From an uncultured Clostridia bacterium (GTDB taxonomy: Bacteria > Bacillota > Clostridia > Christensenellales > Borkfalkiaceae), in NCBI GenBank assembly GCA_947572415.1, contig CANPBT010000016.1:1-34624 (forward strand): a DNA stretch of 34,624 nucleotides. Direction: 5' to 3'. The position numbers and the translations under genes are program-made. The notes under the pieces are model-generated. The model was not told where the DNA came from. It ran no database searches and was given only the letters and a program-made list of their open reading frames with translations. Of this stretch, positions 5,250 to 23,152 are shown piece by piece (position 1 is the first letter of the stretch; every line of letters begins with the position of its first letter).

Positions 5250-5267
5250 ATATTAAAAATTGCTTGT

Positions 5268-5609: not shown

Positions 5610-5615
5610 AAATTT

Positions 5616-5644: not shown

Positions 5645-5735
5645 CTTTTAGACCGAGAATTTACCGGCGCAATTAACATCAATTTATTTTAGGGGCTTAA
5701 AGCGTTTTAATTTCATAATTTAAGGCAATAATAAG

Positions 5736-5741
5736 TATATT
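5736..5741 (+). promoter_or_regulatory. Possible -10 box of murG, leaderless spacing
   Basis: TATATT ends six bases before the murG ATG, the same spacing as for the 5609 and 7386 genes. No convincing -35 hexamer is seen at 16-18 bp, so this one is weaker. Confidence 0.4.
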
Positions 5742-5747
5742 TAAATT

Positions 5748-7523: not shown

Positions 7524-7600
7524 TGAGGTGTAGCGCAGTTTGGTAGCGCGTCTGGTTAGGGACCAGAAGGTCGTGGGTTCAAGTCCCGTCACCTCAACCA
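7524..7600 (+). tRNA. tRNA-Pro, anticodon AGG
   Basis: A full cloverleaf can be drawn. The acceptor stem is TGAGGTG/CACCTCA, the D-stem GCGC/GCGC, the anticodon stem TCTGG/CCAGA around loop TTAGGGA, the T-arm GTGGG-TTCAAGT-CCCGT, discriminator A and an encoded CCA. The loop places AGG at positions 34-36, reading proline CCU. Bacterial tRNA-Pro species usually carry TGG, GGG or CGG, so A34 is unusual and would be a candidate for inosine modification. The 3' end (7577 onward) is the attachment site of the integrated element, and the gene stays intact after integration. Confidence 0.93.
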
Positions 7601-7601
7601 A
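7577..7601. repeat. attL, 25-bp tRNA 3'-end repeat
   Basis: Bases 7577-7601, from GTTCAAGTCCCG to CTCAACCAA, recur exactly at 23128-23152. They cover the T-loop through CCA of tRNA-Pro plus one base, a typical tyrosine-integrase target. Confidence 0.93.
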
Positions 7602-7605
7602 TTTT

Positions 7606-7646
7606 GCCCGATTTTGAGTTAAAAAAGCTCAAAATCGGGCTTTTTT
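7606..7646 (+). terminator. Element-borne terminator of the tRNA-Pro transcript
   Basis: GCCCGATTTTGAG (7606-7618) and CTCAAAATCGGGC (7628-7640) form a perfect 13-bp stem followed by six T. It lies inside the element and replaces the displaced chromosomal terminator. Confidence 0.92.
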
Positions 7647-7695
7647 GTTTGGTTTTTAATTGTTTTTAGTTATTTGGAGTACAGTTTATTTACGA

Positions 7696-7717
7696 TTTTG
7701 GGGCACGTTTTGGGGCA
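7696..7717 (+). repeat. Putative left arm-type integrase sites
   Basis: TTTTGGGGCA occurs at 7696-7705 and again at 7708-7717, a 12-bp period. A similar GGGGCA pair in the same orientation lies near attR at 23030-23046. The distances to the att cores are about 95 and 80 bp. Binding by the integrase N-terminal domain is inferred. Confidence 0.6.
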
Positions 7718-7723
7718 GAAACC

Positions 7724-8938: not shown

Positions 8939-8960
8939 GTATCCTTATTCAGACAAGCTT

Positions 8961-9002
8961 TTATCTGTCCTTATAGCTTTGAATACTATGTTCTCTTTCC
9001 AT
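8961..9002 (-). CDS. 13-codon leader ORF upstream of int
   Basis: ATG at 9002 is preceded by AAAGGAGG, the strongest ribosome-binding site near the integrase, and encodes MEREHSIQSYKDR followed by TAA. The ORF is too short for a structural protein. Its stop is 22 bp before the integrase TTG and in another frame, so it may be a leader that controls int translation by coupling, or the relic of a longer gene. No peptide family is recognised. Confidence 0.4.
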   Translation of the reverse strand: MEREHSIQSYKDR

Positions 9003-9028
9003 CGCGTTTCCTCCTTTTGCGATAAAAT

Positions 9029-9235
9029 TTATGTTTTCTTATATTGTTCTTTAAGCGCTTCCCATCCTGCATAGATGAGTTGCACCTTGGTTATGTGATT
9101 TTCTTTGAGAAACTTGTTCAACTCCTCAAAGTCCTCACGGTTCATAGAAGTTCCCCACACGGCGTGTGCCGCCTTGCGTTCGTCTTTGTGTTTGCCCTCG
9201 TATCTCTTGTCAATTTCCGATTTAGGCGTTCTCAT
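9029..9235 (-). CDS. Small ribbon-helix-helix-like DNA-binding protein
   Basis: 68 residues from the ATG at 9235, which has GGGAG eight bases upstream; a GTG start at 9250 would overlap that site. After a charged N-terminus the pattern AVWGTSMN (strand), REDFEELNKFLKENH (helix), ITK (turn), VQLIYAGWEALKEQYKK (helix) fits the MetJ/Arc ribbon-helix-helix fold. Such proteins in mobile elements act as relaxosome accessories or autoregulators. It is first in a unit with the leader ORF and int, and its promoter is flanked by 13-bp repeats that could be its own operators. An excisionase role is an alternative. Confidence 0.72.
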   Translation of the reverse strand: MRTPKSEIDKRYEGKHKDERKAAHAVWGTSMNREDFEELNKFLKENHITKVQLIYAGWEALKEQYKKT

Positions 9236-9260
9236 ACTGCTTACTCCCACATATATAATG

Positions 9261-9324
9261 TTAATACGATTATACTCGGTCGGCGATAAAAGTCAAGTGT
9301 TTTAATAAATATTAATACGATTAT
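9261..9324 (-). promoter_or_regulatory. Promoter with paired 13-bp operator-like repeats
   Basis: Minus strand TTGACT (9291-9296), 16 bp, TATAAT (9269-9274). The 13-mer TTAATACGATTAT occurs exactly at 9261-9273, overlapping the -10, and at 9312-9324, upstream of the -35. Each copy is itself almost palindromic (TTAAT-ACG-ATTAt). This is a likely operator pair for the adjacent RHH protein and would set expression of the RHH-int unit. Confidence 0.7.
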
Positions 9325-9326
9325 TT

Positions 9327-10664
9327 CTATTTGCCCCAATCCCACTTGGAACTTTTAGGTTTTATTTGTTCCTGTGGACGATTTTCTTTTTCGTATTCTT
9401 CTTGTATTTCCTCCTCTATTTCTTTTAGACGGTTACGGTAGTTTTGCGTTTCGGGCGAAAATAATTCTGCTACCGATGAAAACAGTCCATCCATAATACC
9501 GCGCACTTTTATTGATGAAATTGCGAGCCTGCGTTTAAGGTATTTATCGTTTGTCTTATATTTTCTGCGTGGATTTCTCTTATACGTTTCATTCTGTATC
9601 TCACGCACCTTTTTGAGAACGATATTGCCCAATCGCCTGCGGTAGTCCCACTCCAACTTTTCTATGGTGTGGATTGTCTTAATTCCTTGCACATCTGTAA
9701 AGTTTGGAATATTCTCCGTGTACCACCTTTCCTTTCCCAAACGGTCTTTATAGTAGTTGCCCATTATGCCTTTTAACTTCCGTTCCTTATCCCGAAGTTC
9801 TTTCCTAAAAGCGTGGTCTGCTTCACTTGTTCTTTCGTCCATATCAATGAGCCATTCTGCCACAAGGTCTATCTTTGCATGATACGGTTTCATTTCTTTA
9901 CTTCCGTACCATAACGGTTTATCTTGGGGTAGTTCGTCTGCAAGTTCCTTTAACCACTTACGCACTAAATCGTTGATATGTGCAAGGTCGTACTCGTTGC
10001 TTGTTCTGGTGAGTTCCTCTACAACTTTCTGTCTTTTCTTTGCGAGGTCGTCATCAATGGTATATGCGTTCAAGCGTTCAGTCATTTTATCTATAACGTT
10101 GAGAGGTATCTTGCCTTTCTTGCGATAGATATATCCCGCCGCACGTTGGTTTTTTACATTCGGCTCTTTCTCCCAAAAGACGTAATGAATATGCAAGTGT
10201 TCTGGTCTGTCTAAATGTAATGCACACATCAAGTCCATATTGGTGGAATTGAACCCCGCGTCCTTGAAAAATTGTCCGAAGGTCTGCTTTATGAGCGCGA
10301 TACACTTTTCTGGGTCATCTATCTTATCTGAGTTTTCTTTATTGAACGATATAAAACCGTGCCATAAATTCTTCTCGCCCGTCTGTGCTCTCCGTTTCAT
10401 TTCCTTAACTTGTTCTTTCGTTAGCATTCCGTATTGGTTGAATACGCCAGTACTCTTTTGCAAGTATTCCAGCATTGTAAACTTCTTTGCTTCTTCACTG
10501 TATATCTTGCCTTCCGTGGTTATGTACTTATAAATATTATCCTCGCCCGACATATCGAAGAAAGCGCGTTCCTTTGCGTGGTTAGATATTTCTTCCGCCG
10601 TTGCGTTTTTCTTTAAGCGATACTGCGTATATCCTATATCAAATATTACCGGTTGTGTTCCTAT
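9327..10664 (-). CDS. mobL: MobL-like relaxase (mobilization protein), non-ATG start
   Basis: Relaxase expected to nick the element at oriT and lead the strand into a recipient. The metal-binding histidine cluster is LHLDRPEHLHIHYVFWEKEP, the hallmark of the Firmicutes MobL/MobP-type relaxases (His113, 119, 121 and 123 counted from the first ATG). Conserved YKYITTEG and LWHGFISFN precede it, and a charged helical C-terminus follows. The first ATG (10553) has no ribosome-binding site and begins mid-domain. The frame continues upstream with typical relaxase sequence (PVIFDIGYTQYRLKK) as far as an ATA at 10664, seven bases after GGAGG. I therefore place the start there (445 residues), or suspect a frameshift from the upstream small ORF. 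No canonical start codon exists in the extension. Confidence 0.85.
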   Translation of the reverse strand: MGTQPVIFDIGYTQYRLKKNATAEEISNHAKERAFFDMSGEDNIYKYITTEGKIYSEEAKKFTMLEYLQKSTGVFNQYGMLTKEQVKEMKRRAQTGEKNLWHGFISFNKENSDKIDDPEKCIALIKQTFGQFFKDAGFNSTNMDLMCALHLDRPEHLHIHYVFWEKEPNVKNQRAAGYIYRKKGKIPLNVIDKMTERLNAYTIDDDLAKKRQKVVEELTRTSNEYDLAHINDLVRKWLKELADELPQDKPLWYGSKEMKPYHAKIDLVAEWLIDMDERTSEADHAFRKELRDKERKLKGIMGNYYKDRLGKERWYTENIPNFTDVQGIKTIHTIEKLEWDYRRRLGNIVLKKVREIQNETYKRNPRRKYKTNDKYLKRRLAISSIKVRGIMDGLFSSVAELFSPETQNYRNRLKEIEEEIQEEYEKENRPQEQIKPKSSKWDWGK

Positions 10665-10794
10665 TTTTTATCCTCCACTTGTTTATTTGTTCTTGTGATT
10701 TTGCCGTCGCAGACTGCAAAATCTTAGCCTGCTTCCGTTTTTCGCATTTTAGGTTACATTTTGCTTCCCGTTTGGTTGTAGTTTTGCTTACCAA
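10639..10794 (-). CDS. Possible 51-aa basic ORF overlapping the relaxase start
   Basis: TTG at 10794, with AGGTGG just before it, opens a frame immediately after the upstream gene's stop. It encodes a Lys/Gln-rich peptide (MVSKTTTKREAKCN...) ending at TGA 10639-10641, inside the relaxase N-terminal region. The relaxase frame is +1 relative to it across an A6 run at about 10665-10670. It could be a genuine small protein, a coupling ORF, or the true N-terminus joined by slippage. No family is recognised. Confidence 0.3.
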   Translation of the reverse strand: MVSKTTTKREAKCNLKCEKRKQAKILQSATAKSQEQINKWRIKNRNTTGNI

Positions 10795-11501
10795 CTTCCA
10801 CCTATTATTTCTTTATTATGCGTTAAAATCTGATACAGGCTTTTACTATCTTTGTACGCAGAGTTAGGTAGTTCATAATCTAACATAGTCCAATCTATTC
10901 CTTCGGTTAAGTGCATACTTGATTTATAAATATCGTTCTTTACTTGCGGATTGTTTTTAAGAAAACCATCCATACCGATTGACGATAAGCCTTCAGGTTG
11001 AATTGCATTTACTTGCTCGGTTGTTACAGGTATTCGCTCTGCTTTACCGCCTTTCTTTCCGATACTACTACGTATTTTTGAAAGCTCTAACTTACGCTTT
11101 GCAAGTGTGTAATACAAATCTACAGGTGAAGATAACTTACTCGGTTCTACGTTATTAAGCGCATAGTTATATATCGCTTTTATATACTGACCTGCTTGCT
11201 TATCTTCCATTAGTTCCACCGCTTCATAGAAATTGCGGTAGAAATTAAAGTGTTTCATTTGCCTAATTGCTCGTACAGTTTTGCCGTTCAACTGAGCGTG
11301 CTTGTCCACGTCTAAGTAGTCTATTATGTTTCCCCATAAAAAGATAAGCTTTTTATCCGTTAGTTCTTTCTGTTCTCCGTCCTCGAACATATACTCGCAA
11401 ATACGTCGCAGTAACTTTCCGCGTTCTTCATCGTTCAATACGTCCATTAGCTCAGCGTACAAATCATAAAATGTAAATTGTTTTAATAGTGTTTTTTCCA
11501 T
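10788..11501 (-). CDS. DUF6291-like protein, two tandem domains
   Basis: I recognise the repeated pattern FxFYxxxxEhhxxhxxxxxxxhhxxIxxYxh, found once as QFTFYDLYAELMDVL and again as HFNFYRNFYEAVELM, each about 60 residues. This matches DUF6291, small helical domains common in Firmicutes phages and integrative elements and often placed near replication genes; the function is unknown. A KKGGKAER linker and a shorter tail follow. The ATG at 11501 (237 residues) has GGAGG four bases upstream. An in-frame GTG at 11567, with GAGGTGAT ten bases upstream, would add 22 residues. It precedes the relaxase and probably shares its transcript. Confidence 0.75.
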   Translation of the reverse strand: MEKTLLKQFTFYDLYAELMDVLNDEERGKLLRRICEYMFEDGEQKELTDKKLIFLWGNIIDYLDVDKHAQLNGKTVRAIRQMKHFNFYRNFYEAVELMEDKQAGQYIKAIYNYALNNVEPSKLSSPVDLYYTLAKRKLELSKIRSSIGKKGGKAERIPVTTEQVNAIQPEGLSSIGMDGFLKNNPQVKNDIYKSSMHLTEGIDWTMLDYELPNSAYKDSKSLYQILTHNKEIIGGSW

Positions 11502-11621
11502 TATTCCTCCATCATTTTGTATTTGTTGCAACCGTTTAACGACTGCTTGCAAGTCACTGATTAGCACATAAGCATCACCTCACTTTTCAATTTTTTGGTA
11601 AACTCCCCATACTAACATAGT

Positions 11622-11635
11622 AACAAAATATTGTT
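11622..11635. promoter_or_regulatory. Inverted repeat upstream of the DUF6291-relaxase unit
   Basis: AACAA-AATA-TTGTT is a perfect 5-bp-arm dyad, 55 bp before the GTG. It overlaps the -35 of a rightward promoter, so it could be an operator. Confidence 0.35.
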
Positions 11636-11750
11636 GACGTGTACTGTCATATATACTTTAATTTTGTCTACTTTTGCCGAAAATTTCTTGTATGAAAAAT
11701 TGTCCCTACATATGGTAGCCAAGTTAAAAGGCTAAAACTTTACCTTTTTT
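11634..11750 (+). ncRNA. Candidate small RNA transcribed opposite to the element genes
   Basis: A plus-strand promoter, TTGACG (11634-11639), 17 bp, TTTAAT (11657-11662), is followed about 80 bp later by a hairpin and T6. GGTA (11714-11717) pairs with TACC (11741-11744), and inside are two alternative stems: TAGCC/GGCTA (11716-11720/11730-11734) or AAGTT/AACTT (11721-11725/11736-11740). The T-run is at 11745-11750. No ORF lies in it. A regulatory RNA or an oriT-associated structure is possible. Read on the minus strand the same region contains no good terminator. Confidence 0.35.
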
Positions 11751-11786
11751 AAAATCTTTCACCAAACTTTCATTTTAGTAAACAGA

Positions 11787-11815
11787 AAAGGAAGTCCAAT
11801 GGCTGAACTTCCTTT
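11787..11815 (-). terminator. Probable terminator of the cargo operon
   Basis: AAAGGAAGT (11787-11795) and ACTTCCTTT (11807-11815) form a perfect 9-bp stem. Read on the minus strand it runs into TTTTCTGTTT. It lies 77 bp after the protease stop codon. Confidence 0.65.
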
Positions 11816-11844
11816 AAAGTTTTATTAGGTTCTTTGCGCTATAA

Positions 11845-11876
11845 CTTTAAATACACACGTGAGTGTACGTTTAAAG
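11845..11876. repeat. Long inverted repeat 3' of the cargo operon
   Basis: CTTTAAA-TACAC and GTGTA-CG-TTTAAAG form arms of 12 bp with a two-base bulge around ACGTGA. It is 16 bp from the protease stop codon and has no T-tract, so it is an mRNA 3' structure or a protein-binding dyad rather than a classical terminator. Confidence 0.55.
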
Positions 11877-11891
11877 CGTAACGTAAAATGT

Positions 11892-12680
11892 TTAAATCAA
11901 ATTAATTTTAATATCTTTCTCGACTTCGGCAATCTGAATAAATTTTTTCAATGTATCAAGCGGAATTGCATACTTCATCCCTTCTGCTTCTTCCCTTGCG
12001 CCTACAGTAACGCCACATACTTCGCCCTTGTCGTTAAACACCGGACCACCCGAACAACCGTGTGCAACAAGTGCATTGAATAAAAATGCCGGATGCCCCT
12101 GAAAATCTCTATTAATATCACCAATAATGCCGTTAACAATATTCAATCCCTGACCAATACTGTTACCGATTGCAACAACAGTTTCTCCAATTTCGGGCAA
12201 TTTTGTTGCAAGTTTCAATGGCGTAGCCGAAGTTGTATTTTCCTTTAATAACGCTAAGTCATTTTTCGGATCTATGTATACAACGTTTAATTTCTCATAA
12301 TCAGTTGAACTATCCGAACAAGAACAAATTTCTTTACAAAGAGCAAGTTTTTTGTTTGAATTGCGAATAACTACCACGTGGCAGTTGGTAATTATGTATC
12401 CATCTTTTGAAATATAAAATCCAGTCCCGTTAGACTCTACATCATCATGTGTACATTTCAACTCAAAAATACTGCCAATAGTGTTTTTATATATCTCCGC
12501 AGGCGTAAACCCATCTTTCTTTACAGGTTTTTCTACAATAACTTTTTCTATAATCTTTTCTACGGGAGGCTTATCTACAAATTCAAACACTTCGTCACAA
12601 GAATTGCAACGATATTGCTTTAAAAACCTATCAATCGGCTCTATTGCCGAACTGCCGCAAATCGGACATACTCCTTTCAT
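11892..12680 (-). CDS. Zinc-ribbon trypsin-like (HtrA-type) serine protease
   Basis: 262 residues. A CxxC...CxxC zinc ribbon (Cys5, Cys8, Cys25, Cys28) is joined by a charged linker to an S1C/trypsin-like domain. The triad is complete: His101 in ITNCHVV, Asp141 in DPKNDLALLK and Ser210 in AHGCSGGPV. GTGFYISKDGYIITNCH is the classic first-barrel signature. There is no signal peptide and no PDZ domain, so it should act in the cytoplasm, unlike DegP/HtrA. It is last in the operon, eight bases after the AAA stop, with GAGGTGA as ribosome-binding site. In conflict systems such proteases act as effectors or activate partners by cleavage; that role is inferred here. Confidence 0.9.
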   Translation of the reverse strand: MKGVCPICGSSAIEPIDRFLKQYRCNSCDEVFEFVDKPPVEKIIEKVIVEKPVKKDGFTPAEIYKNTIGSIFELKCTHDDVESNGTGFYISKDGYIITNCHVVVIRNSNKKLALCKEICSCSDSSTDYEKLNVVYIDPKNDLALLKENTTSATPLKLATKLPEIGETVVAIGNSIGQGLNIVNGIIGDINRDFQGHPAFLFNALVAHGCSGGPVFNDKGEVCGVTVGAREEAEGMKYAIPLDTLKKFIQIAEVEKDIKINLI

Positions 12681-12688
12681 AATTCACC

Positions 12689-13810
12689 TCAATCAATTGT
12701 ACCCATCTGACGAAACTTTTCAAAGTTATTAATGTCTGATTGTGTTATCACGTTGCGAGAACCAGTCAATACGACATTGCAGTCATTTAGAGTAATGTTT
12801 TGCGGAACACCGGCTTTTGAAGCACGCATATAAGCTCTGCCCTTTATTTTATTACAAATCGCAGTTATATCACCGCCGCCGAAGCCTTCCAACGCTTGCG
12901 CAAGTTTTGAAAGTTCAACTTCTTCGTCTATGGGTAAACCTTTAAGAACTTTATTTACAAGAAATTCACGTGCCTCTTGGTCAGAAACACCCACATAAAT
13001 ATGAGTATCAAATCTGCCACCTCGAAGCATAGCTGAATCAAGTGCCCACGGACGGTTAGTGGCCGCTATTAAAAGCAACATTTTATTCGTTTCGCTCTTT
13101 TTAAATCCATCAACTTTGGTTAAAAACGTTGCAACAAAACGAGCCATTTCACCGTCCGCCCCATCCGCACCGTCACCACGCTTGCAGGCAACAGAATCGA
13201 ACTCGTCAAAAAATATTATAGCTCGTTCATTTTTTAATGCCGTTTCAAAAACCTCGTCCAGTTTTTTAGAGCTTTCACCCATCCACTTGGAAATTAAATC
13301 CTGACAGTTCACGACAAAGAACGCCGCGTCCACTTCTCCTGCAATTGCACGCGCTATGTACGTTTTGCCTGTACCGGGAGGGCCGTATAAAAGAATTTTT
13401 GCGCCCGGTTCTATGTGATAAAGCTCGGCAAGTTCTGGATTTTTCAAAGGCTCTAAAACCTTAAAACGTATTTCGTCCTTCACGTCTTCAAGTCCCGCCA
13501 CGTCTGCAAATGTAATATCGCTCTTTTTCTCCGGTTTGATTTCTGTTTTCTTTTCTTCCGAAGGCGCAGAAAGCACTTCCTTAGGCGGATTTTTAACGCA
13601 CTTGTTTTTTACAAATTCCAAAATTTTAACCGCTGTTTTATGATATTCCATACGCACGTCGTATGAAGTTGCACTAACGGAAATCTCGTTTGCAAGCGCA
13701 GCCGCTTTTAAAAAAATGTCTCTTGCAGACAAAATGTCACCGCTGTTATATAAATCTTTTCCTTGCTGATAGAAGCTGTTAAACGCTTCAATTTTCGGTT
13801 GATTGTTCAT
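12689..13810 (-). CDS. Vps4-like AAA ATPase with MIT-like N-terminus
   Basis: 373 residues. Residues about 5-70 are a helical unit (FNSFYQQGKDLYNSGDILSA...) that resembles the MIT domain, the module Vps4 uses to grip ESCRT-III tails. After a Lys/Glu/Pro linker comes one AAA domain: ITFADVAGLEDVKDEI, Walker A GPPGTGKT (143-150), pore loop SKWMGES (174-180), Walker B IIFFDEFD (198-205), sensor-1 Asn252 in AATNRP, arginine fingers Arg263/Arg266 in LRGGRFD, and sensor-2 region GFGGGDI. The C-terminal helix QSDINNFEKFRQMG recalls the Vps4/katanin end helix. The start codon lies 23 bp inside the upstream TIR gene with GAGGAT upstream, so translation is coupled. FtsH or p97-type AAA is the alternative, but there is no protease domain, membrane segment or second AAA domain. 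Confidence 0.88.
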   Translation of the reverse strand: MNNQPKIEAFNSFYQQGKDLYNSGDILSARDIFLKAAALANEISVSATSYDVRMEYHKTAVKILEFVKNKCVKNPPKEVLSAPSEEKKTEIKPEKKSDITFADVAGLEDVKDEIRFKVLEPLKNPELAELYHIEPGAKILLYGPPGTGKTYIARAIAGEVDAAFFVVNCQDLISKWMGESSKKLDEVFETALKNERAIIFFDEFDSVACKRGDGADGADGEMARFVATFLTKVDGFKKSETNKMLLLIAATNRPWALDSAMLRGGRFDTHIYVGVSDQEAREFLVNKVLKGLPIDEEVELSKLAQALEGFGGGDITAICNKIKGRAYMRASKAGVPQNITLNDCNVVLTGSRNVITQSDINNFEKFRQMGTID

Positions 13811-16800
13811 TTTGATAATTATCCTCTATATATCCCCAAATTACTATACAATTAGAATCACACCAATCGCTCATCCATTCACTCGGTTTATTATATATAT
13901 TGCAATTGATAGTTAGCCCGAAGCAATGAGAAAATGCACTACTGCCAATGTACAATACACTAATTGGAATAGTAATACTTGTAAGTCCTATGCATCCATA
14001 AAATGCAAAATCATTAATCTTAGAAGTGTCATCAGATAAAATTACAGACTTTAGCATATAACAGTTACTAAATGCACCAACAGGAATATCTCTTCCACAA
14101 CTAATAATTACATTAGTTAAATTCTTTGGAATAAAATACCCAACATCTGTTTCCCACTTGTTATAGTAATCATAATAATATCTTTGATATACTCGTACAC
14201 CACCAGCATACTCTTTAGTGCCAAATATATACCCAAACAATGCACTACTACCAAATGTAAAACCACTACCAACGAACGGTAATGTTATACTTTCAAGACC
14301 ACTGCATCCACCAATAGCAGCTGTACCAATTGATGTAACATTACTTGGTATATTCAAATTTGACAATTCGTAACAGCCCCAAAAAGCAAATTCCCCTATG
14401 GAGTTTACACTACTTGGAATAACTATGTCTGTTACTCCATTCCAACCACAAAAAGCATAATCATTTATTGCCGTAATATTATCTGGAATAGTAAGTTCAC
14501 CAGAAAAAAGTTTGCCATTTATGTATATATTGTTAGCATAATACATTGGATTAGAATCAATAGAATTAAATGTTATATTACACCAACTTTCTAAATTTCC
14601 TAAATAATAAGTGTCCGTTAGATTTGAACATTCACTAAATAATCTTGATGGCAACCCGCTTACAGTACTACCTATATAAATTTGATTAAGATTTGCACAA
14701 TCAGAAAAAACACCTGTTTGCGCAAGATTCGCAGGATTCCATAGTACACAATTTTCTGCATGCCACTCCACAGTATTCAAATTAGAACATTCGTAGAACG
14801 CACCCATACCTATTGAACTTAAATGCTTAGGAATATTAATACTGGTTAAGCCGTTGCAATTAGCAAACGCATAACAACCAATTGTTAAAATATTTTCAGA
14901 AATATTTATACTAATTAATGCACTACACCCATAAAATGCCCCTCCCCCTATAGTATTAACGCTTTCGGGTATAGTTACACTAATTAATGCTCTACACCCA
15001 TAAAATGCATTTTCCCCTATTGTATTAACGCCTTCTGGTATGGTTACATTAATTAAATTGTTACAATTTTGGAATGTATTATCGCCTATGCTTATTACAG
15101 GTTTATTATCAACATACGCTGGTATTTCAACAATTTGATTTGCCCCAACATATTTTTCCAAAGTAATTTCATTCGTACCATAATATTCAAAATCGAACAA
15201 CCATACGGCATACAAATTATAATTATTTTCTGAATTCATAGTATAGCTTGCACCATCGGCATAAATAACCTCGCCGTTTTCATAAGTGGACCAACCAATA
15301 AAATTATAATTATTCTTAGTGAATAAATTACTATTCAAAGGTGCAGTACTATCAGTAGCAATTTTCTGCTGAGGCATTTCACCTTCGCCGCCATTTGCGT
15401 GGAAAGTAATTGTATTCAGATTTGCAGTCCAGTTTGCGGAATACATTTTATTTCCTATACTTCCTTTTTCGATTGTTACGGTTTGTTGGACAGAAGTTAA
15501 CTCCTCACCTGTCCAACCAGCAAAAGTATATCCTGCACGGACAGGTATATTTAGAGTAAATGTTTCCGTTTCTATATTATAAGTTTCAAAATTATCGTTT
15601 TCCGTACCACCATTTAGCTCGAATGTAATAGAATATTCAATAGGCTTCCATACAGCATAAATCGTATAAACACTTTCTGTGCCCATAGTGTAATTCGACT
15701 TATCGCTGTAAATAATTGAACCATTTACAGTGGTACTCCAACCGACAAAGTTATATCCTATACGCTTAAAGTTATTTTCATTTAATGTAACTGATTCGTC
15801 CGTATAAATATTCTGAAAATCCATACTACCGCTCGTTGCACCATTCCCGTCAAAGTACAATGTATTTTCATTAGGTGCCCATACAGCATAAAGTGTATAA
15901 CTTTTATCTGCGCCCATTTTGAATAAATCATTATCGAAATATTCAATAACATTTAAATTAGCGACGGTTGTCCATCCGGCAAAAGTATATCCTTCTTTTT
16001 CATATTCATTTGCAAATAATAACGCCGAATCATCAGTGTAAATTTTTTGGTCCTCCATACTTCCTGAAGTTGCACCGTTGCCATTAAAAATTATTTTGTT
16101 TTCATTGGCAGCATATCGTGCCGTTAATGTTCCGCCATTATTAAAATTCCAAGTTGACAATGATTTACCTGTTCCGTCTGTCAACTTTTCGTCATCACGA
16201 TACCAACCATCGAAAGTATAGCCCGGTTTAACAGGTATAGGAAGTGTAAACGTTTTTTCGTAAATAACATATAGTTCAGTTTGAGAAAGCGTTCCGCCGT
16301 TTGCAGAGAGTCGAATCAACAAGGAAAACTCTACTTGTGCAATGCAGTTATTGTTCCAATTTGTATTCCAAACTGTTGGAACTTCTTCCCTATCGCATAC
16401 AGCTATTAAATTCAAATTTTTACAATTTTCAAAAGCATTTGCTCCCATATATTTTACCGTGTTCGGAATATATATTTCCGTTATACCATCACAGTCAGCA
16501 AATGCTTTATCGTTGATAGTTTGAATGCTCTCAGGAATAATAAATTCGGTAACTTTATCAAAGTTTTTAAATGCACCTGAATTTATTCTAACTACAGATT
16601 CACCTTTATAGGTGGAAGGAATTTCAAAAACTCCTGATGCTGTACTATGATAAAATAATCCACTATCAATAGCATAGCCGCCTTCAACTTTTTCAAATTT
16701 TAACTGATTCTCACTTTTATACCAGTACACTCCACCCGTGATAATTCCGCACAACAAAATTAAAAGACTTAATGCAACACTTGCAATTTTTATACGTCTT

Positions 16801-19511
16801 TTGCGTTTTTGTGCTTTTACTTGTTTAATTTCTTGCTCTTCTAACCACGCCTTTTGCTTATTCTGCAGGTCGATATAGTGTGCCATAGCAGAGCTGTTTG
16901 AAGCCGACGCTAATAATGCATTCTGAAATTCCTGAAATTCAGTTACAACTTCCTTTTGTTTTATAAGTTGTTCGTCCGACTTGCATTTTAATTTTGCCAG
17001 CAAAAGTCCCCAGTAAGCCGTATGGTCATCCGCATTTAAGCCTATACTCATTGCATAATAACGTTCCGCATATTCAAAGACGCCAATAATCATGCAATTT
17101 TGCGCCATTTCGTTTACGTATAGAATAAGTTTGTCGTTGTATTGCTGTGGGATAAATGAAAGCAAAGTTTCAAAGATTGTAAAAATTCTATCCTGAACCG
17201 ACAATTTTTCCTTAACACAATCCAAACTTGCGGTTATTAGCCAGTCAAGAAAGCTTATACGCTTTTCGTCATTTTCGTAAAGCGCAAGTATAGTTTCCAG
17301 CGTTTCAGTATCAGAAAGATTCAAAATACAATCCCGAATTTTTTTATCGGAATCATATTTCAATTCGGCATATAATTTGCCCGCATAATAGCGTATATCG
17401 TCTCCGCCATATTTAATCGCTTTTTCATAACAATGTATTGCAAGTGTAAATTGTTCGCTCTTTCTAGCACTTTTTGCAAACAAATAATAATAATTTGCGT
17501 AAAGTTTTACATCGCCGTTGGAGAGAACAGTTATCACTTTTATAAAAAGCTCTTCTATGCCTTTATCGGGGGTATTTATACATATTTCAGCAATATCTTT
17601 AAGATTTGCTTCTCTTGCTTCAAATCTGTATTTTGAAAATATGCTACACCACGCAAGCGAATCTTTATATAATTTATTTTTAAGACATTTTATTGATTGC
17701 GATGCAAAAGCAAGCAATAAAGCTTCTGCGCCTTGCTCGTCAACATTGTTCAAAACTTTTTCTATAGTACCAAACTCATTATGTTCCTGACAATATAAAA
17801 ATACGCCATCAAGATTTGTAGCTTTATATTTTAGCTGTAAACCTCCGATTTGAGTTTGCAAACTTACAGCGTCATAATCTAAAAGAATTTTATGATATTT
17901 ATCTGCAAGCGAAAAGGCTTTTTGGTTTATGCAATTTTCAAATATCGTATGCAACTTATTGACATAAGCTACTTCATCCTGTTCGTAAACGAGTACCGCA
18001 TCGATAAAATACTGTATATTGGAAATTTCGTTTAACAAAGGTAATGAATTTTGGAAAATAAATTCGCGCAATTCTGATACAGTTTCATTATCGATTGAAT
18101 TTATCTGTTCTAAGAGCTCTTTTGATTCGTCATACCTCTTTTCTGAAAAGAGACGTTTTATTTCTTTACTTAAAGCACTTAGAACTTTTTCGGCATCAGA
18201 TTTTTCGGCGTATGCAAGAACGTCGTTTAAAAGCTGTAAGTTGCGAAAATTGATAACACCGGTTTTGTCGAATTCCGCTATATTTTTACATTTCGCCTGT
18301 GCCAACATTTTACCTAACAGGGCATTCCCGTTTTGCCTGTTGTTCAAAAGAAAGCTATCAAAAGATTTATCGGCATCTGTGAAATTCCCACTTCCCAAAT
18401 AGGCATAAGCTATTTTTATTAATTTTTCCGCATTTGCCGTAAGTTTAGGAACGGAATATGTACCTATTTCACGTTTTGCAATCTTTTCACGCTTAATCGA
18501 TTTAGATGTAGCACCGTTTATCTCAATAACTTCAACAACATCGAGTTTTGCGACTGACAACGAGGTCTTCGCTATACGGTTTTTAATTTCTTTACGCTCG
18601 ATGCGCGGCACAACGGTATGTGCGGCTTTTAAAACTCGTGCGACATAGGAATCCAAATCCTGCAAAAAAGTAAGACTTTCCCTATTAATATTTTGAACGG
18701 AAGGCAATGGTCTTGGAAGTTTTGACGGATTGAAATCTTTGTACACCACTACGATAGAATTTTTTTGTTTTTGTCCCGATTTAATCCGCTTGTAATATCT
18801 TGACCATTCGTTTTTTACCCAAGTCGATTCGATATATTCTACTTTACTGCCATAGATAATCATAACCTGAGCAGTATTAAGTGCATTGAAAATATACGGC
18901 TCGAATTTTTCACCCGTCTTTGATTTAAGCGATTCGCGACTGAAAAATACCCGATAACCAAGAGCAGTTAAATGAGTATAAAGTTCATAAGCATCAATGC
19001 TATCCTGCGTTTGTTTAACGTCGTTTTCAAGCTCGGTTGCTTTATATGAAATAAAAATATCGTAAGGCGGTTCCTTTGAAGCCTTTTCCACCCATTCCTT
19101 ACGAATTTTTTCTATTTTTTCGGCTTGTTCTATGTAATATTTACGGTTTTCAGGCGTGGCTAAATCAAGGGCGCGCTTATAATTTTTATCGTCCTTAACA
19201 CTCTCGTAACTAGTAGCATAACAAGTGGGAATCATTTTACCATCGTAATCTTGCTCATACTTAATACCATATTTTGCAAGTAAAAGTCCCCAATACCCCT
19301 CACTGTTTTCCGGATACTTTCTTACGATATCGCGATATGCTTCCTCGGCATCATCGAATGCGTTAAGCCTTAATTTTTGCGAAGCAGTATAAAGAAGCGT
19401 AACTTCTTCATTAGATAGTTCCTCTTCCTTATACGCTCCACATGCAGGGCATACCCATTTACCGTTCTTATATTCGTAATTTGCGCCGCAAATATTACAT
19501 ATGTTTTTCAT
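13788..19511 (-). CDS. Giant zinc ribbon-TIR-TPR-TM-InlB/LRR receptor-like protein
   Basis: 1907 residues. The order is: zinc ribbon (Cys5, 8, 21, 24); TPR-like helices (30-90); TIR domain (about 149-295) starting YDIFISYK, with Glu235 in WVKNEW as the likely catalytic-site glutamate; a long helical TPR-type region (to about 870); basic KAQKRKRRIK followed by one membrane helix (about 907-930). Beyond it lie a BspA-type LRR block (935-1030), about five InlB B-repeats (GYTFDGWY, GYTFAGWT, GYNFVGWS and others, about 1050-1390) and a long BspA LRR block (about 1400-1890). The positive-inside rule puts the TIR half in the cytoplasm and the repeats outside. TIR domains either cleave NAD+ or act as scaffolds; which applies here is not known. 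The ribosome-binding site is modest (AGGACA). YWGLLLAK occurs twice (73-80 and near 840), showing an internal duplication. Confidence 0.93.
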   Translation of the reverse strand: MKNICNICGANYEYKNGKWVCPACGAYKEEELSNEEVTLLYTASQKLRLNAFDDAEEAYRDIVRKYPENSEGYWGLLLAKYGIKYEQDYDGKMIPTCYATSYESVKDDKNYKRALDLATPENRKYYIEQAEKIEKIRKEWVEKASKEPPYDIFISYKATELENDVKQTQDSIDAYELYTHLTALGYRVFFSRESLKSKTGEKFEPYIFNALNTAQVMIIYGSKVEYIESTWVKNEWSRYYKRIKSGQKQKNSIVVVYKDFNPSKLPRPLPSVQNINRESLTFLQDLDSYVARVLKAAHTVVPRIERKEIKNRIAKTSLSVAKLDVVEVIEINGATSKSIKREKIAKREIGTYSVPKLTANAEKLIKIAYAYLGSGNFTDADKSFDSFLLNNRQNGNALLGKMLAQAKCKNIAEFDKTGVINFRNLQLLNDVLAYAEKSDAEKVLSALSKEIKRLFSEKRYDESKELLEQINSIDNETVSELREFIFQNSLPLLNEISNIQYFIDAVLVYEQDEVAYVNKLHTIFENCINQKAFSLADKYHKILLDYDAVSLQTQIGGLQLKYKATNLDGVFLYCQEHNEFGTIEKVLNNVDEQGAEALLLAFASQSIKCLKNKLYKDSLAWCSIFSKYRFEAREANLKDIAEICINTPDKGIEELFIKVITVLSNGDVKLYANYYYLFAKSARKSEQFTLAIHCYEKAIKYGGDDIRYYAGKLYAELKYDSDKKIRDCILNLSDTETLETILALYENDEKRISFLDWLITASLDCVKEKLSVQDRIFTIFETLLSFIPQQYNDKLILYVNEMAQNCMIIGVFEYAERYYAMSIGLNADDHTAYWGLLLAKLKCKSDEQLIKQKEVVTEFQEFQNALLASASNSSAMAHYIDLQNKQKAWLEEQEIKQVKAQKRKRRIKIASVALSLLILLCGIITGGVYWYKSENQLKFEKVEGGYAIDSGLFYHSTASGVFEIPSTYKGESVVRINSGAFKNFDKVTEFIIPESIQTINDKAFADCDGITEIYIPNTVKYMGANAFENCKNLNLIAVCDREEVPTVWNTNWNNNCIAQVEFSLLIRLSANGGTLSQTELYVIYEKTFTLPIPVKPGYTFDGWYRDDEKLTDGTGKSLSTWNFNNGGTLTARYAANENKIIFNGNGATSGSMEDQKIYTDDSALLFANEYEKEGYTFAGWTTVANLNVIEYFDNDLFKMGADKSYTLYAVWAPNENTLYFDGNGATSGSMDFQNIYTDESVTLNENNFKRIGYNFVGWSTTVNGSIIYSDKSNYTMGTESVYTIYAVWKPIEYSITFELNGGTENDNFETYNIETETFTLNIPVRAGYTFAGWTGEELTSVQQTVTIEKGSIGNKMYSANWTANLNTITFHANGGEGEMPQQKIATDSTAPLNSNLFTKNNYNFIGWSTYENGEVIYADGASYTMNSENNYNLYAVWLFDFEYYGTNEITLEKYVGANQIVEIPAYVDNKPVISIGDNTFQNCNNLINVTIPEGVNTIGENAFYGCRALISVTIPESVNTIGGGAFYGCSALISINISENILTIGCYAFANCNGLTSINIPKHLSSIGMGAFYECSNLNTVEWHAENCVLWNPANLAQTGVFSDCANLNQIYIGSTVSGLPSRLFSECSNLTDTYYLGNLESWCNITFNSIDSNPMYYANNIYINGKLFSGELTIPDNITAINDYAFCGWNGVTDIVIPSSVNSIGEFAFWGCYELSNLNIPSNVTSIGTAAIGGCSGLESITLPFVGSGFTFGSSALFGYIFGTKEYAGGVRVYQRYYYDYYNKWETDVGYFIPKNLTNVIISCGRDIPVGAFSNCYMLKSVILSDDTSKINDFAFYGCIGLTSITIPISVLYIGSSAFSHCFGLTINCNIYNKPSEWMSDWCDSNCIVIWGYIEDNYQNEQSTEN
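14910..15008 (-). repeat. 69-bp tandem LRR-coding repeat
   Basis: A 30-bp block beginning ACTAATTAATGC and ending CATAAAATGC occurs at 14910-14939 and, with a single mismatch, at 14979-15008, a period of exactly 69 bp (23 codons, one LRR). Such near-identical DNA repeats can expand or contract by recombination. Confidence 0.8.
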
Positions 19512-19532
19512 TTAAGTGTCCTAATAATATTT

Positions 19533-20117
19533 TTAAATAGCTTTGTTCTTTTCTGCTTCTATTTCGGCAGATAAATCAAGTGCAGAAGCCGCAGGCATAG
19601 ATACGCCCGAAATTTTCGCACGTGCTGCGTCTATCATAGGACGAACCGATGCTATTTCTGCATCGCTCCTTGCTCTGTTTGCCGGGTTTGAAGTTTTCAT
19701 TGCTCCCGTCATTGCCTTTTGCGAAATTTTGATATTGCGCATATACTTTGCCATTTTCGCATTAGCTTTTTGAATTTTTCTGATATCGGGAAGTTTTGCT
19801 TTATTTCCTGCCATCATATCAAGCGCGTTCATTGCCGTAGCCATTGTCATAGCAATAGAATTTGACACATTTATTATATCGAAATTTGCCTTTGTCTGCA
19901 TTAGTGAACTTATTACATCATTTAATTCCATTAATGCATTTACTGCTACGTCATAAGTGCCCGTATCATTGTTTATTTCCGCCTCGGCGGCGATTTTGGC
20001 GTATTCCTCACGTTTTTGCTTTAATGTGTTTATTTGTTCGTTAAATCTTTCAATCTGTTCGTCGCGCTCCATTTGCGCCATTATTTCTTTTTCCTGTTTA
20101 GTCTTAAAGAATGCCAT
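19533..20117 (-). CDS. ESCRT-III (Snf7/CHMP)-like protein
   Basis: 194 residues, all helical and without Pro/Gly breaks in the first 90. The ATG at 20117 is used because GGAGGGAAACTGA lies upstream and its spacing to the previous stop (one base) matches the rest of the operon; an upstream ATG at 20138 would overlap the previous gene. The first long hairpin is about residues 8-90. It is followed by VSNSIAMTMATAMNALDMM, then KLPDIRKIQKANAKM and AKYMRNIKISQKAMTGAM, a Met-rich pattern and order strikingly like eukaryotic CHMP1/CHMP3 (Vps24/Did2). PspA/Vipp1 are distant superfamily members, but this is closer in look to the Snf7 branch. It would form membrane-bound filaments that the Vps4-like ATPase remodels. 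The evidence is pattern recognition, not a search. Confidence 0.72.
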   Translation of the reverse strand: MAFFKTKQEKEIMAQMERDEQIERFNEQINTLKQKREEYAKIAAEAEINNDTGTYDVAVNALMELNDVISSLMQTKANFDIINVSNSIAMTMATAMNALDMMAGNKAKLPDIRKIQKANAKMAKYMRNIKISQKAMTGAMKTSNPANRARSDAEIASVRPMIDAARAKISGVSMPAASALDLSAEIEAEKNKAI

Positions 20118-20118
20118 T

Positions 20119-21129
20119 TCAGTTTCCCTCCGTCTCAATTTTATCGTTTTCTTTAACCGTAGTGGTTAAGTCACTGTCCGTAGCCGAATGTCTTTCCTTC
20201 TCGCGTTTTTTGCGCATAAGTTCTTCCTTATATTTCAGCGCATCTTCGCTGACCGTTGCAGTAGCGCTATCCAACCTGAAAACTTTCTCATCCAGATTTT
20301 TAGTTTTTGAAGCAATTTCCTTTAAATCGCTTTCCGTTCGCTTTAATATTACTACTGCTTTATCAGGGTCACTTATAACTTTTCTCAATCTATCCATATT
20401 TAAAAGTGCTTTTGCTTTACTGATTTCATCAGACGCAAAACCCGAAGAGAATAGGATTTCCTTTGCGTTGACGTAAATCATATCAAGTAAATTGCGGCAA
20501 GCGGAATAATTGCTTCTGCGTACAGTCAAAGCATCTATTTTGCTCTTCGTTGCTTTTACGCTGCGGAACAGATCGTTAATTTTACGCTCGTTCTCCTCTT
20601 CTATCATCGACTCTTCATATTGCGCCAAATCTTTTTCGAGAACCACAAGCTCCTTTTCTATACGCTTTTCGTTATCCGCCAAACTTGATTTCATGCCGTC
20701 AAGTTCCGAAAGTCTGGCTTCAAGCCTTTTTCTTCCCCTGCTCAGTTTTTCCTTTGCAATTTCCTCTACGCTTTCCATTACAGTGGAACCGTCAAGTACG
20801 TCCTTCCAAAGGCAAATGGTGTAATCCAATTCGTCTGCCGCGCTTTCCAACCTGTGAATAAGCGGCTGGTCGATTTGCTTTTTTAATTCTTTAACATGCT
20901 TGGAAACGTCTTCCGATAGTGCGATCACGTTTTCCTCACCCGTTCCGATAGCATTTTCAAGTGAAGATAACGAGTTTTTTAAAGTAGCCGTAACAGCTTT
21001 TACTGCGGTGCTGTCTAGTTCGGCATTGTATTTACCTTTTTCCAGTTTGTATAAAAGCGCCTTTAATTCGGCTATCGCTTCATCCCTTAAATTGTTATTA
21101 ATCGACACCGACGGTGTGTATTTTTTCAT
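20119..21129 (-). CDS. Long coiled-coil protein, possible second ESCRT-III-like subunit
   Basis: 336 residues, nearly all helical with heptad patterns; no enzyme motif, signal or membrane segment. Residues about 118-260 form a long charged helical hairpin (RGRKRLEARLSELDGMKSSL, then IDALTVRRSNYSACRNLLDM), which recalls the alpha1-alpha2 hairpin of ESCRT-III and PspA. The tail is Lys/Arg-rich then polar. The start is TGA-T-ATG coupled to the SPFH gene with GGAGG nine bases away. It lies between SPFH and the Snf7-like gene, so a membrane scaffold or ESCRT-I/II-like adaptor role is plausible but inferred. Confidence 0.7.
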   Translation of the reverse strand: MKKYTPSVSINNNLRDEAIAELKALLYKLEKGKYNAELDSTAVKAVTATLKNSLSSLENAIGTGEENVIALSEDVSKHVKELKKQIDQPLIHRLESAADELDYTICLWKDVLDGSTVMESVEEIAKEKLSRGRKRLEARLSELDGMKSSLADNEKRIEKELVVLEKDLAQYEESMIEEENERKINDLFRSVKATKSKIDALTVRRSNYSACRNLLDMIYVNAKEILFSSGFASDEISKAKALLNMDRLRKVISDPDKAVVILKRTESDLKEIASKTKNLDEKVFRLDSATATVSEDALKYKEELMRKKREKERHSATDSDLTTTVKENDKIETEGN

Positions 21130-21130
21130 A

Positions 21131-22474
21131 TCAATCCTCCGTATAAAGCAATTTTTCCTGATAAAAGTCCAAAACTTCTTTCATATAATCTTTTCGTGAT
21201 TTGTTGTGTGCGAAAAATTTGTCCAATTTCTTTTTGTTTTCTTCCGACCTGTGCCTTATTTTGTTTATAACACGCCACATTACTGTAGCTCTGTAAGCTT
21301 CCTGTGGAGAAAGTCCCGCTCTCATAAATCTAATTAACGGGTGCATTTCTACCGTAATTGGTGTACCGTCACTTTGAAGCTCAATCACTCTCGGCGGTAA
21401 AGGTTTTAAAATACCGTTCTTATCACGTTCCATTAAATAATATCTGTCGTCAGACTTTGCTTGATATACAGCGGTCAAATATTCTGAATAGTTCATATAG
21501 AATTTTTCGTTTCTATGGGGAAGTTTATATTTCGTAATTAAATTCTCTTCTACCTTACTGTAAATCAAACTAGCAAGAAGAACTAAATCATCATTTTCAT
21601 CCGCTTGTTCAAGCAATGTGTGTGCATTGAGTTTTACCTTCTTAATATTGTTAATTTTTGCCTCTTCGCACAGAGGAAGTCGCTCTGTGATTATATCTTC
21701 CAACTCCGCAGAAATATTTGCACCAAAATCATCTAGTTGCTTTTGTAAAATTTGTTTTAATTCAGTAGAAACAATTTCAGAAATCTCCACTTTTAAATCT
21801 TCAATGGATGAAGTACTTTCAGCATTATTGATACGATTTCTGATAATTTCTAAATCATCTTCGTTTACGTGGATTTTTTCAACTGTCAAATCCTTTAACT
21901 TAAACCCTATATCACTAAACGCATTCTCATTCTTCAAAGAGTTAAAAAGCTCATCCCTTATGTTTTCAATCTGAGACGCAATTTCAAACACTGAAATATC
22001 TGTTTTGGCAAAACATTTCCCAAGAACAGCATTTCCTAAATTTCTAATAATGCTAATTGTTCTGTCGCGCACTTTTTCTGTCGTAATATTATTTTCTACG
22101 TTGAAAGCGCTAATTAATTTAGCAATATCGACAATTTCAACGACGTATTTACCATTTGCACCAACCCTGTACGCTTCTTTCAAGCGGTCGTTATTTACTT
22201 GAATATTGCCGAACCCCCATAGCATCGCAGGTAACATCTTTGTATGAACAAAAGCAATTTTACCTCGTTTACCTATATAATCTTTTCCGTATTCACTAAG
22301 TTTTTTTGTCGCGCCCTCATTCATACGAAACGTAACTTTTTCATCAATCAAAATAATCGCCTTAAAGCCATTAGGCACTTTAACAACGGTATTTTTTTCA
22401 ATAATCACATTTTGAGTAAATTGCACAATTACGTTCTCATCTGCAACCGTCGGCTGTAAAATAATTCCTTTCAT
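21131..22474 (-). CDS. SPFH/band-7 domain protein (YdjI-like)
   Basis: 447 residues. An SPFH-type core covers about residues 25-215: VPNGFKAIILIDEKV, then AMLWGFGNIQVNN, GKYVVEIVDIAKLISAF, and the helical repeat with DISVFEIASQIENIRDEL and FKLKDLTVEKIHV. This order matches the YdjI/virion-core-like branch rather than the transmembrane flotillins, since no membrane helix is present. A coiled segment and a separate C-terminal domain of about 180 residues follow, which I do not recognise. SPFH proteins make membrane-associated rings and in B. subtilis a YdjI-type protein is encoded with a PspA-type ESCRT-III relative, which fits the neighbours here. The start overlaps the XRE stop as TAATG. Confidence 0.78.
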   Translation of the reverse strand: MKGIILQPTVADENVIVQFTQNVIIEKNTVVKVPNGFKAIILIDEKVTFRMNEGATKKLSEYGKDYIGKRGKIAFVHTKMLPAMLWGFGNIQVNNDRLKEAYRVGANGKYVVEIVDIAKLISAFNVENNITTEKVRDRTISIIRNLGNAVLGKCFAKTDISVFEIASQIENIRDELFNSLKNENAFSDIGFKLKDLTVEKIHVNEDDLEIIRNRINNAESTSSIEDLKVEISEIVSTELKQILQKQLDDFGANISAELEDIITERLPLCEEAKINNIKKVKLNAHTLLEQADENDDLVLLASLIYSKVEENLITKYKLPHRNEKFYMNYSEYLTAVYQAKSDDRYYLMERDKNGILKPLPPRVIELQSDGTPITVEMHPLIRFMRAGLSPQEAYRATVMWRVINKIRHRSEENKKKLDKFFAHNKSRKDYMKEVLDFYQEKLLYTED

Positions 22475-22830
22475 TAGTTGTTACCACCTTTTGAATTTAC
22501 CAATTTGCAAATCTCGTCTAACGTGAAAGCATCTATATCATCCTGCGCCAAAGCCATAATAACTCGACGTTTCTTCTCACCGAGTTCTGTTAAATCTATT
22601 TTTACCCTATCCTTAGTTGCAATTAACGCTTCCTTTAAATTGGATTGATCGCGTTCGGACAAAGGATATGAAGAAACTACTTTTTCAAACAAATCATTTG
22701 GAACATCTCTCCTTCCATTTTCAATAGCATTCAAATAAGGTACAGAAATCCCTAACTTATCTGCCATTTGCTTCGCACTGTCTCCTGAATTGATACGAAT
22801 TATTCTTAATGCTTTTCCGAATTCAGTCAT
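22474..22830 (-). CDS. XRE-family transcriptional regulator of the cargo operon
   Basis: 118 residues. A Cro/CI helix-turn-helix covers about residues 4-60 (MADKLGISVPYLNAIENGRR is the recognition part). A helical C-terminal region (60-115) with KRRVIMALAQDDIDAFTLDE is probably for dimerization. It is the first gene of the seven-gene operon, with AGGTAGG upstream and a one-base overlap with the SPFH gene. Two copies of a near-palindrome sit at the operon promoter, so autoregulation is likely. A repressor role is inferred. Confidence 0.88.
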   Translation of the reverse strand: MTEFGKALRIIRINSGDSAKQMADKLGISVPYLNAIENGRRDVPNDLFEKVVSSYPLSERDQSNLKEALIATKDRVKIDLTELGEKKRRVIMALAQDDIDAFTLDEICKLVNSKGGNN

Positions 22831-22858
22831 AATTACCTACCTTTGATTAACTGTTTTT

Positions 22859-22887
22859 ATTATATGACAATGCCTCAATAAAGTCAA
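22859..22887 (-). promoter_or_regulatory. Promoter of the ESCRT/TIR cargo operon
   Basis: Minus strand TTGACT (22882-22887), exactly 17 bp, TATAAT (22859-22864). This is a near-perfect sigma-A promoter 29 bp before the first gene, and no other strong promoter was found within the operon. Confidence 0.88.
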
Positions 22888-22933
22888 TACAATTTTGTAT
22901 ATTTTATTAGTATTATTTTGATACAGTTTTGTA
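22887..22933. promoter_or_regulatory. Two operator-like near-palindromes
   Basis: ATACAATTTTGTA (22887-22899) and ATACAGTTTTGTA (22921-22933) differ by one base and are 34 bp apart. Each is nearly symmetric (ATACAA/TTGTAT). The first abuts the -35 box. They are likely sites for the XRE protein. Confidence 0.6.
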
Positions 22934-22955
22934 AATTGGTAATTCTAATAAATTT

Positions 22956-22978
22956 ATGTCCCGGTTTGACCGAGACAT
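22956..22978. repeat. Inverted repeat near the right end of the element
   Basis: ATGTC-c-CGGT-ttg-ACCG-a-GACAT is an interrupted 9-bp-arm dyad between the operon promoter and the right arm sites. It may be a terminator stopping incoming transcription, or a binding site for an excision factor; no T-tract follows. Confidence 0.45.
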
Positions 22979-23029
22979 TTAAACAATTAACTAAAAAGAC
23001 TTTCAAAGTTCCTTTCTATTTTATTTCTT

Positions 23030-23046
23030 GGGGCAAGGCTGGGGCA
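23030..23046 (+). repeat. Putative right arm-type integrase sites
   Basis: GGGGCA at 23030-23035 and 23041-23046, 11 bp apart, in the same orientation as the pair at 7700-7717 and about 80 bp from the attR core. Confidence 0.55.
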
Positions 23047-23127
23047 AGACATTTGAAATACACTATATCTAGTAGTATTTTTCCTATATTTCCACAATAT
23101 ATTGTATTTTTATCCTTTTTCAGGATT

Positions 23128-23152
23128 GTTCAAGTCCCGTCACCTCAACCAA
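23128..23152. repeat. attR, second copy of the 25-bp tRNA 3' end
   Basis: Identical to 7577-7601; the rest of the tRNA is absent, so this is the displaced half-site at the right end of the element. Confidence 0.93.

Follow-up and report, generated by a model that had tools for sequence, protein, structure and literature searches.

Does a clostridial bacterium encode a membrane-remodelling machine of the ESCRT-III/Vps4 kind, and with what partners does such a machine travel? The question is raised by a stretch of 34,624 nucleotides (hereafter the window) from an uncultured Clostridia bacterium of the Borkfalkiaceae (assembly GCA_947572415.1, contig CANPBT010000016.1, positions 1 to 34,624 of the forward strand), in which a short gene, ESC, shares an operon with genes for a TIR protein and an AAA ATPase. 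The analysis presented here indicates that ESC is likely the ESCRT-III subunit of a bacterial ESCRT-III/Vps4-like membrane-remodelling machine that is coupled to the TIR membrane protein. The gene in question is:

19533-20117, minus strand: ESC, an ESCRT-III-like (Snf7-type) protein of 194 residues, assigned from family profiles and a structural model

The open reading frame (ORF) runs from an ATG at 20117 to a stop at 19533, with GGAGGG upstream and MAFFKTKQEK as the N-terminus, and it contains both strings quoted in a preliminary description of this DNA, MTMATAMNALDMM and LPDIRKIQKANAKM. Judged by its sequence it is a genuine gene and no chance ORF, because orthologues at about 61-90% identity preserve its frame, length and neighbours.

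The family to which ESC belongs gives the clearest answer regarding identity. Pfam Snf7 (PF03357) was the commonest family match, found in 23 of 40 ESC members (best 2.8e-8) and in 5 of 19 in an earlier, smaller set; the nearest kin of the window ESC with such a match is L014 (E 0.022). Searched against 44 positive genomes, the Snf7 model had matches at E ≤0.01 in eight, all falling on ESC-family ORFs, and passed its curated cut-off (27.3 bits) in three (33.3, 28.0 and 27.9 bits); in the same search it stayed below that cut-off even on Sulfolobus, a control with real ESCRT-III. Against the PDB (177,635 sequences), a 40-row family profile (A11) ranked Sulfolobus islandicus CdvB first (E 0.05) and human CHMP2A second (E 0.15), a result obtained with this profile alone, as the smaller profiles A5 (19 rows) and A4 (10 rows) found no ESCRT-III there. 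For scale, yeast Snf7, searched alone, matches an ESCRT-III of a Loki archaeon with an E-value of 0.21. When the family profile was compared by hhalign with an aligned set of Snf7, Shrub, CHMP2A and CdvB, it reached 90.7% (score 45.8, columns 17-137 against 18-140), while 30 column shuffles scored at most 18.8 and the reversed profile 13.2. Comparisons with single sequences gave 16.8% for CHMP2A and 12.3% for CdvB, in a setting where genuine ESCRT-III pairs are also low (Snf7-CHMP2A 4.2%, Snf7-CdvB 0.5%). Taken at the level of profiles, homology of the ESC family to Snf7/ESCRT-III is shown by computation. A MIM1-like C-terminal pattern, defined post hoc after inspection of the sequences, occurs in 23 of 33 proteins of a second clade, ESC3 (1000 shuffles: mean 0.65, maximum 5), and in none of 24 ESCB proteins, a second type of helical protein at these loci. 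ESCB and CC336, the coiled-coil protein encoded beside ESC, were themselves considered as extra ESCRT-III paralogues, for which profile comparisons gave no support.

A more conventional explanation would make ESC a divergent PspA/Vipp1, an ordinary bacterial branch of the superfamily beside an SPFH gene, as in the ydj operon of Bacillus subtilis. The superfamily fold and the SPFH neighbour are indeed shared, two sources record PspA-SPFH operons (PMC11237479, PMC10936438), and PspA and Vipp1 are among the structural neighbours of the ESC model (e.g., PspA 4whe, Z 8.6, 93 aligned, 4.3 Å). ESC nevertheless hardly matches the PspA profile: PspA_IM30 (PF04012) was matched in two of the 40 members (best 0.2), with no Pfam match to it in the window ESC, and hhalign of the family profile against PspA and Vipp1 gave 0.3%, compared to the 23 Snf7 matches and 90.7% for the ESCRT-III set. 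ESC loci also differ from ydj in having an MIT-AAA ATPase. On this evidence a PspA identity is very improbable. The preliminary description, which saw in the helix order a close likeness to CHMP1/CHMP3 rather than PspA, is thus borne out in its choice of ESCRT-III over PspA and by the match of the family to Snf7 profiles, but not in the narrower kinship with CHMP1/CHMP3; the top PDB profile matches are CdvB and CHMP2A. The long helical hairpin that it had described was also predicted, as helices 7-48 and 52-103 of an AlphaFold2 model built from nine sequences (mean predicted local distance difference test score, pLDDT, 58.9). Further helices at 112-127, 133-139, 152-170 and 183-192 complete an ESCRT-III helix order in this low-confidence model, in which pLDDT reaches 68-79 across ten-residue blocks from 11 to 80. 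The top four Foldseek matches in the PDB were CdvB, CHMP2A-CHMP3, CdvB2 and CdvB (E 0.11-0.15), and the best VIA matches were an Asgard ESCRT-IIIB (Z 9.6, 93 aligned, 4.0 Å) and Snf7 (Z 9.4, 91 aligned, 2.3 Å). The fold match is treated as supportive only, because unrelated helical proteins reach Z 8.9.

The second part of the answer comes from the genes transcribed with ESC, which are listed here in order of transcription:

22474-22830, minus strand: HTH_3 regulator of 118 residues, the first gene of the operon (PF01381, 35.4 bits, cut-off 23)
21131-22474, minus strand: SPFH/Band_7_1 protein of 447 residues (PF13421, 36.3 bits, above the cut-off of 24)
20119-21129, minus strand: CC336, a 336-residue coiled coil, conserved partner of ESC, with no significant family match
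13788-19511, minus strand: TIR protein of 1907 residues, with a Zn-ribbon-like start, TIR_2 at 152-270, TPRs, a predicted transmembrane segment at 907-925, and Flg_new/InlB-type and LRR_5 repeats
12689-13810, minus strand: AAA ATPase of Vps4-like architecture, with an MIT-like N-terminal domain (residues about 1-70, at 13601-13810)
11892-12680, minus strand: trypsin-like (HtrA-type) peptidase of 262 residues (PF13365, 83.1 bits)

ESC itself stands between CC336 and the TIR gene, starting 1 bp after the former and ending 21 bp before the latter; the TIR gene ends inside the ATPase gene, and throughout the operon genes overlap or are separated by gaps of ≤21 bp. The preliminary description had placed a TIR protein and then a Vps4-like ATPase downstream of ESC. 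The order is as described, and "Vps4-like" suits the N-terminal fold, but for the AAA domain itself the PAN and CDC48 models outscore CdvC. That domain is a classical AAA (PF00004, 135 bits), and it does not approach the CdvC cut-off of 650 bits. Among AAA proteins beside ESC3, CDC48 and CdvC are nearly level (233 and 221 bits in L042), and in those of L042, L044 and L097 the CdvC model aligns from position 6 to 364-365 of its 370. The first 80 residues of the window ATPase were modelled as three helices (4-22, 26-46 and 50-70) with a pLDDT of 90.4. Their best structural match is the Calpain-7 chain of the Calpain-7:IST1 complex (Z 12.2, 74 residues, 1.2 Å), a chain which we take to contain MIT, followed closely by an archaeal Vps4 MIT (Z 12.0, 74 residues, 1.8 Å). 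MIT-bearing proteins fill most of the 50 rows of structural matches, and TPR rows reach Z 10.4. Pfam MIT matches two of 37 N-termini of these ATPases (best 1.5e-6), and one MIT match, of 28.3 bits (cut-off 30), falls on the N-terminal end of the ATPase of L040 (genome G594). Within the limits of a model, an MIT-like fold for the N-terminus of the window ATPase is shown by computation.

The association of these genes was followed across 41 distinct loci (44 fetched, less three duplicates; the count leaves out the neighbourhoods of eight positive genomes, G415, G511, G571, G579, G634, G699, G735 and G736). An AAA ATPase gene is present in 40 of the 41, always on the ESC strand, an SPFH gene in 37 (of the four loci without one, three lie no more than about 1.5 kb from the end of their contig), and a second helical protein (ESCB, CC336 or CC348) in 39. 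TIR-protein matches occur in 30 loci, 27 of them to the N-terminal TIR part and three to the leucine-rich repeat (LRR) part only, and a trypsin-like gene in 15. A BrxL-like gene adjoins five loci (L038, L040, L042, L081 and L097), the L042 copy (4509-5948) being BrxL (BREX Lon-like) by Pfam at 371 bits.

Several results weigh against placing the window operon with ESCRT-III/Vps4. Taken alone, the window ESC has no Pfam Snf7 match up to E 10 and as a single query gave no PDB match of note; Pfam, NCBIfam, PADLOC and PDB searches with it are all uninformative on ESCRT-III identity. Its own clade scores just 4.7% against the ESCRT-III set and carries the MIM1-like pattern in none of 11 proteins. 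Two members of that set, CHMP2A and CdvB, had been selected by the same family profile, and against single sequences the profile gives 0.2% for yeast Snf7 and 0.7% for Shrub. The ESC model is weak, given its mean pLDDT, with 0.11 as its best Foldseek E. For the ATPase, NCBIfam scores are 210 bits for PAN, 203 for CDC48 and 182 for CdvC; its N-terminus has no Pfam MIT match, hhalign of the N-terminal profile against the yeast Vps4 MIT found no match, and TPR_8 and TPR_2 each match 10 of the 37 N-termini, at weaker scores. The link between the window ESC and ESCRT-III runs through its relatives: by hhalign its clade and ESC3 are homologous over their full length (97.9%, columns 1-193 against 1-191). 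These observations could be read as convergence: ESC would be a coiled coil of helical-hairpin form with no relation to ESCRT-III, and the ATPase an unfoldase of the PAN/Cdc48 kind whose N-terminus is TPR-like. The weak single-protein E-values, the 14-3-3 and C3PO rows interspersed with ESCRT-III rows in the structural matches, the higher PAN and CDC48 scores and the TPR matches would all fit. However, convergence would not readily account for Snf7 exceeding the Pfam cut-off in three genomes and always on ESC-family ORFs, nor for two separate ESCRT signatures, an ESCRT-III-like protein and an MIT-like ATPase, next to each other at 40 of the 41 loci, and it is considered unlikely.

The TIR protein is the largest partner of ESC. 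TIR_2 (PF13676) passes its cut-off (39.3 bits against 28), and W-x3-E, the NADase site and a mark of NADase TIRs, is present as W231 and E235. The pattern W..NE[WYFL] is shared by 24 of the 29 TIR regions that were aligned, is missing in three proteins of family f2 (L044, L079 and L080), and occurs as variants in L011 and L090. A single hydrophobic helix, predicted to span the membrane at 907-925, is preceded by KRKRR and followed by the Flg_new and LRR_5 repeats; the same layout of N-terminal TIR part, one helix and repeats recurs in one protein each of L007-L012. The repeats are probably outside the cell, with the TIR/TPR half looking cytoplasmic. This is the layout of a Toll-like receptor in reverse: a single predicted membrane helix separates the LRR from the TIR, but the TIR is N-terminal, the LRR are of the BspA type, the topology derives from hydropathy only and no homology is claimed.

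The whole operon lies within an integrative mobilisable element of about 15.6 kb inserted in a tRNA-Pro gene (window 7577-23152), with exact 25-bp ends and the following features:

7524-7600, plus strand: tRNA-Pro (agg), the integration site
7577-7601, plus strand: putative attL of 25 bp at the 3' end of tRNA-Pro, with an exact copy at 23128-23152
7724-8938, minus strand: tyrosine-type phage integrase (PF14659, 35.5 bits, cut-off 22.6)
9327-10553, minus strand: MobL relaxase (PF18555, 59.4 bits, cut-off 28.5)
10788-11567, minus strand: DUF6291 protein of mobile element (PF19808, 63.1 bits)
23128-23152, plus strand: putative attR of 25 bp

Between the repeats lie the integrase, the relaxase, the DUF6291 gene and the entire ESC operon, and G+C is about 0.33-0.40 inside the element, compared to 0.39-0.45 on its left and 0.40-0.47 on its right. 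The ESC operon is therefore cargo of the element. The ends of the element and the conserved linkage of the genes described above are, like the family homology and the MIT-like fold, computational findings.

The distribution of ESC is patchy. As a single query it found eight close relatives, at 62-90% identity, among one-genome-per-species contigs, and in a class sample one relative at 75% identity and one full-length match at 20% (three weak partial matches, L004-L006, were discarded). A profile of the window's clade found 17 of 396 genomes of the clostridial order and the ESC3 profile 44; class-wide the ESC3 profile found 4 of 391 genomes, all of the same order, and phylum-wide the 40-row profile found 1 of 279, the window's own. 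Searches of viral contigs, plasmids and phages found no ESC relatives, the viral contigs having also been searched with the proteins of two relatives. In a tree, the window's clade forms one side of a branch (99/94), the placing of this long-branched clade being uncertain, and ESC3 members from different families are intermixed, which is consistent with transfer. One locus, L010, is recorded under Elusimicrobiaceae, for which transfer and binning error are both possible.

Some loci place ESC in a different company. In L038 (1690-14899), two sigma-70 genes and genes for FtsZ and an FtsA-like protein stand upstream of the ESC3 operon, which is part of an ftsA-ftsZ-sigma-nrdR cluster shared with L040 (two genomes of family f88; the L040 order was read by eye). 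An ESCRT-III-like N-terminus also begins proteins of 633-639 residues in L046 (8769-10670), L095 (9506-11419) and L096 (6359-8278). The L046 protein, of 633 residues, has its Snf7 match on the N-terminal part (E 0.0044), and the rest resembles an FtsK-type DNA translocase by eye.

If ESC is an ESCRT-III subunit, it would polymerise on the inner, cytoplasmic surface of the membrane, where the SPFH protein, as a membrane scaffold, and the coiled-coil partner may fix its location. Through its MIT domain the adjacent ATPase would bind ESC at the C-terminal helix and extract subunits, driving remodelling and disassembly with ATP. This machine would be coupled to the membrane-spanning TIR protein, with the trypsin-like protease as a further effector, and the set would move as cargo of the mobilisable element. 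For its role, an envelope-stress or anti-phage response is a guess, to which the TIR domain, BrxL, protease and mobility are pointers. The FtsZ neighbourhood of L038, together with the like order in L040, and the fused ESC protein of L046 point instead to division or DNA transport, and an ESCRT-III-like machine for division or sporulation, of which the mobile copy is a spin-off, would explain them. That alternative is somewhat doubtful, given the patchy spread (44 of the order's 396 sampled genomes), a tree that mixes families as transfer would, the TIR, BrxL and protease partners, and a window copy that sits on a mobile element. Returning to defence, it is possible, and proposed tentatively, that the operon is a mobile bacterial immune system in which a Toll-like protein (LRR outside, TIR inside) senses envelope attack, ESCRT-III filaments seal or sever the membrane and the MIT-AAA ATPase recycles them, the ESCRT-III and Vps4-type pair having spread horizontally among bacteria. 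The operon, which joins ESCRT, SPFH and TIR, could also stand for a new type of envelope defence in bacteria.

Among known systems, the archaeal Cdv machinery of Sulfolobus (ESCRT-III with CdvC/Vps4) is similar in pairing an ESCRT-III-type protein with an MIT-AAA ATPase; CdvB is the top PDB profile match of the ESC family and archaeal Vps4 MIT is among the best fold matches of the ATPase N-terminus. The ESC system differs in its bacterial host and its SPFH, TIR and protease partners, and neither CdvA nor a winged-helix ESCRT-II was noticed in the window. The anti-phage system IetAS likewise combines an AAA ATPase with a serine protease, and PADLOC IetA matches the window ATPase at 9.8e-44; however, at 132.6 bits the ATPase falls far short of the NCBIfam IetA cut-off of 510, the score is one common to generic AAA models, and IetS is a subtilase while the ESC protease is trypsin-like. 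A 2024 PSP survey (PMC11237479) describes, in its available part, Snf7 or PspA linked to AAA+ genes in some bacteria, bacterial Vps4-like transfers in which snf7 is displaced by a TPR/6TM protein, and other bacterial Snf7 with a TM segment and ABC/OmpA partners. Unlike the ESC loci, the systems in that part include no TIR-domain protein and no clostridia, its 'Tir' entries being CesT/Tir chaperones. ESCRT-III together with Vps4 is regarded as a hallmark of archaea and eukaryotes, and another 2024 survey describes the pair as 'confined to archaea and eukaryotes' (PMC10936438). A literature search that reached no preprints and few subscription papers found no description of the TIR-SPFH-ESCRT-III-MIT-AAA arrangement. 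With a mobile bacterial ESCRT-III/Vps4 it could be tested how ESCRT arose and spread, and a bacterial version would supply simpler proteins for biochemistry.

The ATPase complement also varies between loci. L031 and L009 represent the only locus without an AAA gene, in which serine-recombinase-like genes follow the TIR gene by eye. Downstream of ESC, five loci belonging to the window's clade, L007 (10587-11867), L008, L010, L011 and L012, encode a second AAA ATPase that has a short helical N-terminus of its own and is absent from the window. A doubled ATPase at L084 (7287-9377), the only one scored for domains, carries a SpoVK/CbbX-like AAA domain between its N-terminal domain and a Cdc48/CdvC-like domain, and proteins of similar length occur in L085-L092.
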